64,000 nucleotides of DNA from Gammaproteobacteria bacterium (GTDB taxonomy: Bacteria; Pseudomonadota; Gammaproteobacteria; Arenicellales; UBA868). Where the stretch lies: NCBI GenBank assembly GCA_022450155.1, contig JAKUQR010000008.1:1-64000 (forward strand), in the 5' to 3' direction. The notes beneath the pieces are model-generated. The model did no database searches, was not told the origin of the DNA, and saw only the letters and a list, made by a program, of their open reading frames with translations. This document shows, in pieces, positions 48,562 through 51,565 of the stretch. Each line of letters begins with the position of its first letter. The first letter of the stretch is position 1. Both the position numbers and the translations under genes were made by a program.

Positions 48562-49011
48562 ATGACCGCTGTCACCGTTCAAGAAATTGAATTGCTGACG
48601 CTGGAATCGTTGCCATTCGCTGTTGATTATGGCTTCAGAGTCGATTCACTAGGATCGGGAACTGCGGCCGTACACGCACCCTATAAAGAATCATTCCTTA
48701 GACCTGGCGGAACGATTTCTGGACCAGTGATTATGGGTCTGGCCGATTATGCGTTGTACGTCGCTATTCTGACTAAGATCGGTCTTGTCGAACTCGCAGT
48801 TACTACCAATCTTAATATTAATTTTCTACGACGACCTGAACCAGGTGATCTGCTAGCAGTAGCCAGTGTGATCAAGATCGGGAAACGACTTGCGGTGGGG
48901 GAAATTGAGGTCTACGTGGATGGAAAAGAGAGTATGATCGCTCATGCCACTTCAACTTATTCGATACCCCCGATAACAGCCAAGCCTGGACCACAGACGC
49001 AGACCCATTGA
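48562..49011 (+). CDS. PaaI-type hot-dog thioesterase
   Basis: 149 residues. FRVDSLGSGTAAVHAPYKES, FLRPGGTISGPVIMGLADYA with the catalytic-region Asp, VTTNLNINFLRRPEPGDLLA and HATSTYSIP are the PaaI/4HBT pattern. Probably releases CoA from a stalled or final acyl-CoA. Divergent from the enoyl-CoA hydratase, 55 bases apart. Confidence 0.87.
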   Translation: MTAVTVQEIELLTLESLPFAVDYGFRVDSLGSGTAAVHAPYKESFLRPGGTISGPVIMGLADYALYVAILTKIGLVELAVTTNLNINFLRRPEPGDLLAVASVIKIGKRLAVGEIEVYVDGKESMIAHATSTYSIPPITAKPGPQTQTH

Positions 49012-49048
49012 CCCGTAAATTCAGATGCCTTAAAGCGTTATCAGTACG

Positions 49049-49109
49049 GCGCCGATTTGACAATCAGCTTGCGGGCGCAAAAAAATACGGCTAAAGCGAG
49101 TTAAGATTG
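49049..49109 (+). ncRNA. Candidate SAM-II-type riboswitch in the metZ leader
   Basis: The 61 bases fold by hand into an H-type pseudoknot with the SAM-II plan. P1: GCGCC (49049-49053) with GGCGC (49074-49078). Loop 1: GATTTGA, which resembles the conserved U-rich loop of SAM-II. P2: CAATC (49061-49065) with GATTG (49105-49109), and CTTGC (49068-49072) with GCGAG (49096-49100). Loop 3 is A-rich (AAAAAAATACGGCTAAA), containing GCTAAA as in known examples. The gene behind it, metZ, is a typical SAM-II target, and a terminator follows at once. Pairings are seen; the class is inferred, and the length of loop 3 differs from the usual, so SAM-V or a chance fold remain possible. Confidence 0.55.
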
Positions 49110-49111
49110 AT

Positions 49112-49148
49112 AACCCGCTCTGGCCCAGGTCATTGCGGGTTTTTATTT
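49112..49148 (+). terminator. Leader terminator before metZ
   Basis: AACCCGC (49112-49118) pairs with GCGGGTT (49135-49141), followed by TTTATTT. It begins two bases after the pseudoknot candidate and 46 bases upstream of the metZ ATG. It could end the upstream thioesterase transcript or serve as the expression platform. Its loop contains CCCAGGTC, the exact complement of GACCTGGG at 49154-49161. Confidence 0.7.
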
Positions 49149-49186
49149 GCCGAGACCTGGGTCGGGGATGAACCAGGAAAAGCTAA

Positions 49187-50362
49187 ATGAAACATTCCTA
49201 CGACACCACGGCAGCAATCAGGGCAGGGCAGGTTCGAACCGGGGAAAACGAGCACAGTGACCCTCTTTTTCTTACTTCGAGTTTTGTGTTTTCTAGCGCA
49301 GCAGACGCAGCAGAAAAATTCTCCGGCAACGCGTCAGGGAATGTGTACTCACGCTTTTCTAACCCAACTGTCAGGGCATTCGAGACGCGGCTCGCCCAGT
49401 TGGAGAATGCAACTTATTGCCTTGCAACTGCCTCTGGTATGTCTGCGATTCTGCTTCTGGCTTTGGCATTGTTGAAATCGGGTGACCATGTTGTAGTCGC
49501 AAAGAGTGTATTTGGGAGTACAGTGACGCTGTTTTCCAACGTTCTGTCGCGATTCGGTATCACGATGGACTTCGTAGATATCACTGATTTAGATCAATGG
49601 GCCGAAGTCCTTACGCACCAAACCCGATTGTTGTTCATTGAAACCCCGTCGAATCCGTTAATGGAAATAGGCGACATTGCAGCATTAGCTGAATTGGCGC
49701 ATCAGAATGGTTCGATACTCGTAGTGGACAATGCTTACTGCACACCAGCTTTACAATGTCCGATATTGTTAGGGGCAGATGTAGTCGTTCATTCGGCGAC
49801 CAAGTATCTTGACGGTCAAGGTCGTTGTATTGGTGGGGCGCTTGTCACAGCAAATAAAAAGCTCCAGGAATCGTTTTTCTCGGCTCTTCGGAGTGCAGGT
49901 CCCGCGATGAGCCCGTTTAATGCGTGGGTATTTCACAAGGGGTTGGAAACGCTCCAGCTGAGAATGAAGGCCCATTCAGAAAATGCGATGAAAGTTGCGC
50001 AATGGCTGACACAACATCCTGCTGTAGATCGAGTGTATTACCCAGGACTCAAGGTGCATCCAGGTCACCATCTGGCTAAGAAACAGCAGTCGGCGTTTGG
50101 CGGTGTTCTTTCTTTTGAGGTGCGTGGTACTAGAGACCATGCCTGGCGAGTGATTGATAGCACTAAATGGCTATCTATTACCGCAAATCTGGGCGATGTT
50201 AAAACAACCATCACTCACCCAGCTACAACAACCCACGCCAGGATCACTGATGCACAGCGGGCCGCAGCAGGAATTCACGATAACCTGCTACGGATTTCAG
50301 TGGGGTTAGAGAACCCAACAGATATCATCGATGATTTGTCACTTGGGTTGTCGGACCACTAG
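49187..50362 (+). CDS. metZ: O-succinylhomoserine sulfhydrylase
   Basis: PLP enzyme that makes homocysteine directly from O-succinylhomoserine and sulphide. It is 391 residues, preceded by AGGA at 49173. Motifs of the Cys/Met-metabolism family: SDPLFLTSSFVFSSAADAAE, YSRFSNPTVRAFETRLAQLE, ATASGMSAI, the PLP Asp in ILVVDNAYCTPALQ and the PLP Lys in HSATKYLDGQG; GDVKTTITHPATTTHAR near the end. The overall pattern is MetZ; cystathionine gamma-synthase or methionine gamma-lyase is less likely. Probably controlled by the leader RNA. Confidence 0.88.
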   Translation: MKHSYDTTAAIRAGQVRTGENEHSDPLFLTSSFVFSSAADAAEKFSGNASGNVYSRFSNPTVRAFETRLAQLENATYCLATASGMSAILLLALALLKSGDHVVVAKSVFGSTVTLFSNVLSRFGITMDFVDITDLDQWAEVLTHQTRLLFIETPSNPLMEIGDIAALAELAHQNGSILVVDNAYCTPALQCPILLGADVVVHSATKYLDGQGRCIGGALVTANKKLQESFFSALRSAGPAMSPFNAWVFHKGLETLQLRMKAHSENAMKVAQWLTQHPAVDRVYYPGLKVHPGHHLAKKQQSAFGGVLSFEVRGTRDHAWRVIDSTKWLSITANLGDVKTTITHPATTTHARITDAQRAAAGIHDNLLRISVGLENPTDIIDDLSLGLSDH

Positions 50363-50475: not shown

Positions 50476-50931
50476 TCAATGAGGTAGCGGCAACTCTGTC
50501 GTGTCTTTGATCTGTTCCATTACAAACCCCGCCGTGACATTCGACAGCGGCAGACGATCAATAAGCCGTAAATAGAAGTCGTTATAGGATGCAATATCGG
50601 GAACCACAACTTTCATCAAATAGTCCACATCCCCTGCCAGCCGGTAGAATCCCATGACTTCCGACATCTCGTCCACGGTGGTCACAAACTGGTTGAACCA
50701 GTCTTGGTTGTGTTCATTGGTTTTGATTGATATAAAAACCATAATTCCGCCGCCGATTTTGTCGCTATCCAGTAATGCGACCCTTTTTCTGATAATGCCT
50801 TCATCTTCTAACCGCCGTATTCGTTTCCAACAGGGAGTGGATGACAGATTCACTTGGCTGGCAATCTCACTGATTGAGAGACTGGCGTCGTTTTGAAGCA
50901 GGGAGAGAATTTTTCGGTCTATGTTATCCAT
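50476..50931 (-). CDS. Lrp/AsnC-family transcription regulator
   Basis: 151 residues. N-terminal helix-turn-helix: DNIDRKILSLLQNDASLSIS and SQVNLSSTPCWKRIRRLEDE. C-terminal RAM ligand domain: FVTTVDEMSEVMGFYRLAGD, YLMKVVVPDI. Similar proteins respond to amino acids and act on neighbouring genes, so metZ (convergent) or the rhodanese gene (divergent) are candidate targets. The 169 bases between it and the rhodanese gene are strikingly AT-rich, suited to an Lrp-type site. Confidence 0.92.
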   Translation of the reverse strand: MDNIDRKILSLLQNDASLSISEIASQVNLSSTPCWKRIRRLEDEGIIRKRVALLDSDKIGGGIMVFISIKTNEHNQDWFNQFVTTVDEMSEVMGFYRLAGDVDYLMKVVVPDIASYNDFYLRLIDRLPLSNVTAGFVMEQIKDTTELPLPH

Positions 50932-51100
50932 AGGAATTTATTCCCTAATAATTGTGATGATTAGATCATATAGAATTAAGTTTTATATTTTAACATAAAT
51001 TTAGCATTATTTGCTTTTTTGATATTGCGATCAGGGAGTCAAGAAGTTAGTCTTCCTGCCGTTATGTATGTCCTGTTTCCACCGTTTACATATCGAATTG

Positions 51101-51565
51101 ATGGAAAAAAGCAACCCTCAAGTTTGCGCAGCATCCCGGGCAGCCGCGGAGCCGATTTCTATCGGCGCGAGACAGGCCTGGTCCCTGATGCAGGCTGAGA
51201 CATCAGCCAAACTGATCGATACCCGGTCAACCATGGAACACGTCATGATTGGCCACCCGCAAGGGGCTATTCACATACCCTGGCAGGATGATCCTGATTG
51301 GGTGGACAATCCCAGGTTTACGGAAAACATCAAATCTTTGATTTCAAATGGCGAAGACAAGACAGACGGCGGGCACTCGCCACCGATCCTCTTGATCTGC
51401 CGTTGTGGGGAACGTTCTCTCGAGGCAGGCAAGCGTCTGATGGCAGACGGGCTTGAGAACATTTACAACGTTGAGTCCGGGTTCGAAGGACCACTTGATG
51501 ACAAGCGGCGAAGACGCTCTGTTTCCGGCTGGCGGTTCGATGGTCTTCCCTGGCAACAGTTTTGA
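51101..51565 (+). CDS. Rhodanese-domain protein
   Basis: 154 residues from the ATG at 51101 (frame open from 51068). A single rhodanese fold: ARQAWSLMQAETSAKLIDTR, IGHPQGAIHIPWQD, and the active loop LICRCGERSLEAGKRL with the catalytic Cys, then NVESGFEGPLD. It moves or senses sulphane sulphur; the substrate is unknown. It is divergent from the Lrp-type gene. No gene was recognised in the 225 bases that follow. Confidence 0.88.
   Translation: MEKSNPQVCAASRAAAEPISIGARQAWSLMQAETSAKLIDTRSTMEHVMIGHPQGAIHIPWQDDPDWVDNPRFTENIKSLISNGEDKTDGGHSPPILLICRCGERSLEAGKRLMADGLENIYNVESGFEGPLDDKRRRRSVSGWRFDGLPWQQF

Follow-up and report, generated by a model that had tools for sequence, protein, structure and literature searches.

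A SAM-II riboswitch aptamer upstream of metZ in a gammaproteobacterium, with a predicted transcriptional OFF switch

SAM-II riboswitches (Rfam entry RF00521, SAM_alpha, the metA element) bind SAM and discriminate against SAH, many representatives have terminators downstream, and an OFF-switch logic has been proposed for the class (PMC1273637). In Sinorhizobium meliloti, the SAM-II element of metZ (RZ sRNA) is predicted to terminate transcription, and a riboswitch-containing sRNA of ~100 nt rises at high SAM (PMC9373788). The SAM-II part of the Pelagibacter tandem SAM-II/SAM-V is likewise predicted to terminate transcription (PMC9481103). As to the distribution of the class, a 2007 survey described SAM-II as sporadic in Gammaproteobacteria (PMC2258182), a 2009 study listed it among Alpha-, Beta-, and Gammaproteobacteria (PMC2704228), and a proteobacterial genome survey of 2014 recovered it from Rhizobiales and Rhodobacterales alone (PMC4239095).

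We analyzed a 64,000-nt stretch of gammaproteobacterial DNA (contig JAKUQR010000008.1, positions 1 to 64,000, hereafter the window), in which positions 49044 to 49102 of the forward strand carry an ordinary SAM-II riboswitch aptamer that is predicted to bind SAM; all features described below for the window lie on this strand unless stated otherwise. The element has P1, the GATTTGA loop, the TTGC:GCTAAA pseudoknot, and an A-rich loop of normal length in common with RF00521, as well as a downstream terminator, a methionine gene as target, and, in relatives, a promoter a few bases upstream (PMC1273637), whereas its P2a is shorter than the alphaproteobacterial consensus and its host is a gammaproteobacterium. 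With the metZ element of S. meliloti it shares the target gene and a predicted SAM-dependent terminator (PMC9373788), but the two belong to different proteobacterial classes, and in vivo data exist for the S. meliloti element. The class, the kind of platform, and the target are all familiar, and the arrangement is common in relatives.

An earlier note on this DNA had proposed a possible SAM-II-class riboswitch in the metZ leader, to be scored with the models for SAM-II (RF00521) and SAM-V (RF01826). When we scanned 211 bases (positions 48990 to 49200) against all of Rfam at a relaxed threshold (E up to 10), the best match was RF00521, at full model length over positions 49039 to 49111 (26.9 bits, E = 1.8e-4, or 6.4e-4 over the whole 3.2-Mb genome), and genome-wide this model matched twice, in the metZ leader and at contig position 113128. 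The score at the metZ leader lies below the curated Rfam cut-off of 36 bits, a value that serves annotation and is not a structural feature; at the default Rfam threshold, tmRNA was the sole hit across the window and SAM-II was absent. We also trained a covariance model, R1, on 41 gammaproteobacterial aptamers from outside the family of the window, whose sequence had no part in it. These came from 60 further SAM-II matches fetched from other families of the class, all of them found with RF00521, so that R1 is not independent of RF00521. R1 scored the metZ leader at 64.7 bits (E = 2.9e-16 over the window and 1.5e-14 over the genome), the second-best match in the window reaching 7.3 bits. A second aptamer ahead of the metZ start, in a tandem arrangement, was also sought with R1, which gave a single strong match in the window.

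Since close relatives from the same family exceed the RF00521 cut-off (39.2 and 36.3 bits) and R1 gives 64.7 bits, the low RF00521 score most likely reflects the poor fit of the Rfam model, or of its training set, to the gammaproteobacterial lineage. Part of the deficit comes from the short P2a of the element, which appears as a 4-nt deletion in the RF00521 alignment. The same scan bears on whether the element might instead be a SAM-V or a SAM-II long-loop (RF01726) riboswitch, a highly improbable assignment that the model scores largely refute. Much of the binding core is common to SAM-V (PMC2704228) and RF01726 also aligns (19.3 bits, E = 0.16); this score is nevertheless lower than that of RF00521 and far under the RF01726 cut-off of 44, and with E allowed up to 10 RF01826 matched nowhere in positions 48990 to 49200; we rejected both classes. 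In addition, P2 extends 3' of GCTAAA through C49065-G49098 and T49064-A49099, and SAM-V reportedly has no such extension (PMC2704228). The locus also differs from the Pelagibacter tandem, to which it is related through the SAM-binding core, in having no RF01826 match and a single aptamer before the metZ start codon.

We then examined the structure of the aptamer. P1 is a hairpin of five pairs, GCGCC (49049 to 49053) with GGCGC (49074 to 49078, placed by sequence and covariation), around loop L1, GATTTGA (49054 to 49060), which agrees with the RF00521 consensus and of which GATTTG is present in 97/98 parsed aptamers. P1 varies among relatives with compensation (97% of cells paired, both-side changes in 4/6 pairs, and the outer pair seen as A-U, C-G, G-C, U-A, and wobbles), and the outermost pair of most relatives is unformed in the window, where it reads G-A. 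The 5' strand of P2 (49064 to 49072), in the register of the SAM-II core, consists of TC (49064 to 49065) and TTGC (49069 to 49072), and its 3' strand (49090 to 49099) of the GC and AA of GCTAAA (49090 to 49095) and of GA (49098 to 49099); TTGC pairs with GC and AA, and C49065-G49098 and T49064-A49099 form the outer pairs. Ahead of this 3' strand lies the A-rich loop L3 (49079 to 49089), delimited by sequence and by comparison with 98 aptamers. Contrary to the earlier suggestion, at 11 nt it is not longer than usual, given that it measures 12 nt in 75 of these aptamers, 11 nt in 21, and 13 nt in 2. We find no support for a variant, since the loop is of normal length and the aptamer conforms to the shape common among Gammaproteobacteria, as a normal member of the class.

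The pseudoknot drawn in the earlier note was correct in its five-pair P1, its GATTTGA loop, its A-rich loop, and the place of GCTAAA, and wrong in its P2. The pairing drawn there, CTTGC:GCGAG plus CAATC:GATTG, is present in the window sequence and in its ligand-free minimum-energy fold, yet it is not kept in relatives: on 41 diverse aptamers (A2), this register paired 75.6% of P2 cells and showed no double change, and for the CAATC:GATTG equivalents matched pairing barely beat permuted pairing, with 143/2,000 permutations as good. With the SAM-II register on the same aptamers, 100% of TTGC:GC-AA cells were paired, as were 89% of those in the two outer pairs, one of which showed double changes. 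Among relatives, the C-G pair of P2 is conserved in 98/98, the G-C pair in 96/98, and the equivalent of C16-G50 in 95/98; the inner pairs of P2 are invariant, and covariation comes from outer P2 and P1 only. Over the whole structure on A2, 96.7% of cells were paired and double changes occurred in five pairs; covariation scored 0.178, versus an average of 0.078 for shuffles and 0.082 for the best slid version.

The downstream gene (49187 to 50362, ATG at 49187) encodes O-succinylhomoserine sulfhydrylase, as the NCBIfam equivalog models PRK08133 (632 bits) and TIGR01325 (538 bits) both exceed their cut-offs; the gene had rightly been named as the target. The aptamer begins ~30 nt 3' of the stop codon of a thioesterase-like gene (48562 to 49011) and ends 84 nt 5' of the metZ start. 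From the sequence, we read a weak sigma-70-like promoter candidate, TTGACC - 17 nt - TAAAGC (49008 to 49036), the -35 element of which overlaps the stop codon of the thioesterase gene. Its -10 element is poor (3/6), so polymerase may read through from the upstream gene; in 77/97 related aptamers, TANNNT stands 13 to 19 nt 5' of P1, as has been described for SAM-II (PMC1273637). An Lrp/AsnC-type regulator gene (50476 to 50931, reverse strand) lies convergent with metZ.

The linkage of aptamer and metZ is conserved. An aptamer match was found in 32/33 genomes of the family of the window, and the aptamer was directly upstream in 11 of the 14 metZ orthologues of the family (at least 65% identity; aptamer and gene positions were compared by hand). 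A metZ homologue detected by phmmer lay downstream in 46/60 of the fetched gammaproteobacterial loci, the others having metK, metF, metX, or transporter genes downstream, as judged by eye from translations, and the aptamer also precedes metZ in Leucothrix pacifica and in two species of Ectothiorhodospira. Taken with the RF00521 and R1 matches and the covariation of P1 and P2, this linkage supports both the SAM-II class and metZ as the target. That the similarity could be due to chance, with no functional RNA, is suggested by nothing beyond the subthreshold Rfam score and is already refuted by the comparative evidence, namely, the genome-wide E value of R1, the position before metZ in most orthologues, and the covariation. 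A leader that resembles SAM-II and has a terminator and an antiterminator could in principle bind another ligand or a protein; the Rfam score is under the cut-off, and SAM binding by the window RNA is something we infer. We regard this as very unlikely, as the core (GATTTGA, TTGC, and GCTAAA) equals the SAM-II consensus to the letter, close relatives of the same family score above the cut-off, and the downstream genes are mostly those of methionine and SAM metabolism.

Across 369 sampled gammaproteobacterial genomes, 118 had an RF00521 match at E up to 0.001, of which only 30 reached the Rfam cut-off, compared with 0/14 control genomes having a match. By these counts SAM-II is common in Gammaproteobacteria, and together with earlier reports (PMC2258182, PMC2704228) they show that the class extends beyond Alphaproteobacteria. 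Annotation at the Rfam cut-off overlooks the majority of SAM-II elements in Gammaproteobacteria, leaving methionine regulation there underannotated.

The earlier note contained no expression platform, and we identified one here. Sequence and comparative evidence establishes two mutually exclusive hairpins in the leader, both far stabler than shuffles and both conserved in relatives. The antiterminator (49090 to 49124; -11.7 kcal/mol, z = -3.45) pairs GCTAAAGCGAGTTA (49090 to 49103) with TAACCCGCTCTGGC (49111 to 49124) through 12 pairs with two A-C mismatches. The intrinsic terminator (49112 to 49148; -17.2 kcal/mol, z = -4.24, with no shuffle as low) pairs AACCCGC (49112 to 49118) with GCGGGTT (49135 to 49141), followed by TTTATTT. 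A simple terminator scan found nothing because it limited loops to 8 nt and the terminator loop has 16 nt; the hairpin was found with a purpose-written scan. Such a terminator-like hairpin occurs in 80/98 related leaders versus 23/1,960 shuffled tails (1.2%). Antiterminator pairing within the leaders of relatives beats all but 1 of 2,000 permutations, with a small mean gain (matched, -12.7 kcal/mol, versus permuted, -12.1 kcal/mol), since both strands are conserved. The antiterminator uses the P2 strand GCTAAAGCGA, which makes it and the ligand-bound aptamer mutually exclusive.

We propose that the SAM-II riboswitch very probably works on metZ as an OFF switch of transcription; that it binds SAM, that it switches in this direction, and that termination occurs are all predictions from the sequence. 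At low SAM, the nascent RNA would form the antiterminator, which would occupy the left arm of the terminator and let RNA polymerase continue into metZ. At high SAM, the ligand would hold P1 and the P2 pseudoknot, positions 49090 to 49099 would no longer be available, AACCCGC would then pair with GCGGGTT, and transcription would end at the U-run, leaving metZ off. The proposal provides metZ with a concrete, testable regulatory mechanism. Alternatively, the aptamer could control translation of metZ by hiding the ribosome-binding site, the U-run hairpin being incidental or constitutive. The compact SAM-II that has been studied most closely is believed to target the ribosome-binding site, the metA aptamer of S. 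meliloti has a SAM-independent terminator downstream (PMC9373788), and 18/98 related leaders have no terminator by the test used, showing that the platform is not universal. We nevertheless consider translational control unlikely, because the putative Shine-Dalgarno sequence of metZ, AGGAA (49175 to 49179, 7 nt 5' of the ATG), is outside the aptamer and the terminator, ~75 nt 3' of the former and with no overlap with P2, and because the conserved terminator has its left arm in common with an antiterminator built from a P2 strand.

The gammaproteobacterial elements might constitute a subtype of SAM-II, with a short P2a and an antiterminator that uses the ligand-binding GCTAAA strand, that differs from the alphaproteobacterial form in affinity, kinetics, or ligand preference and has been overlooked below the Rfam cut-off; we think this improbable. 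As a separate observation, a strong inverted repeat, CCCAGGTC...GACCTGGG (49124 to 49161), spans the right arm of the terminator and the U-run between the aptamer and the metZ start. In the minimum-energy fold of the read-through leader this repeat is the dominant feature; leaders of relatives show no evident counterpart, and the repeat is possibly an mRNA-stabilizing hairpin or a product of chance.

Finally, we looked at other SAM-II elements in this genome and in relatives. A paralogous copy with a terminator (R1, 64.2 bits) lies outside the window (C8:113133-113191, L001 1506-1564), between metA (homoserine O-succinyltransferase) and a betaine-homocysteine S-methyltransferase gene, and leaders of this metA/betaine-homocysteine S-methyltransferase type are the commonest SAM-II of the family. 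A weak R1 match elsewhere in the genome (C1:126214-126268, reverse strand, L180; 26.2 bits, E = 7e-4) contains GCTAAAGGGGGTGACAGACCCG followed by a terminator-like hairpin; it resembles a decayed element of the short-loop type, for which a clear downstream gene was not found. In three relatives (L114 971-1645; L115), a small rhodanese-like gene, an unusual target, has a short-loop SAM-II leader in front of it, and none was found when SAM-II was sought before the similar rhodanese-like gene of the window itself (51068 to 51565). Several relatives have tandems, in which a SAM-II aptamer and its terminator are followed ~100 nt on by a second SAM-II-like aptamer (R1, 18 to 52 bits), ahead of rhodanese, MoxR-like ATPase, or metF-like genes (forward strand, L114 971-1129, L116 1506-1666, L139 66-233, and L146 66-227; reverse strand, L115 1413-1569, L127 1317-1474, and L136 1300-1472); 44 tandem SAM-II have been reported previously (PMC9481103). 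Two relatives (L125 1390-1465; L152 19-98) have a SAM-II leader ahead of a metK-like gene and, ~1.3 kb away, an SAH riboswitch (RF01057; 49 and 63 bits, both above the cut-off), so that SAM- and SAH-sensing leaders flank the same metK-like gene.
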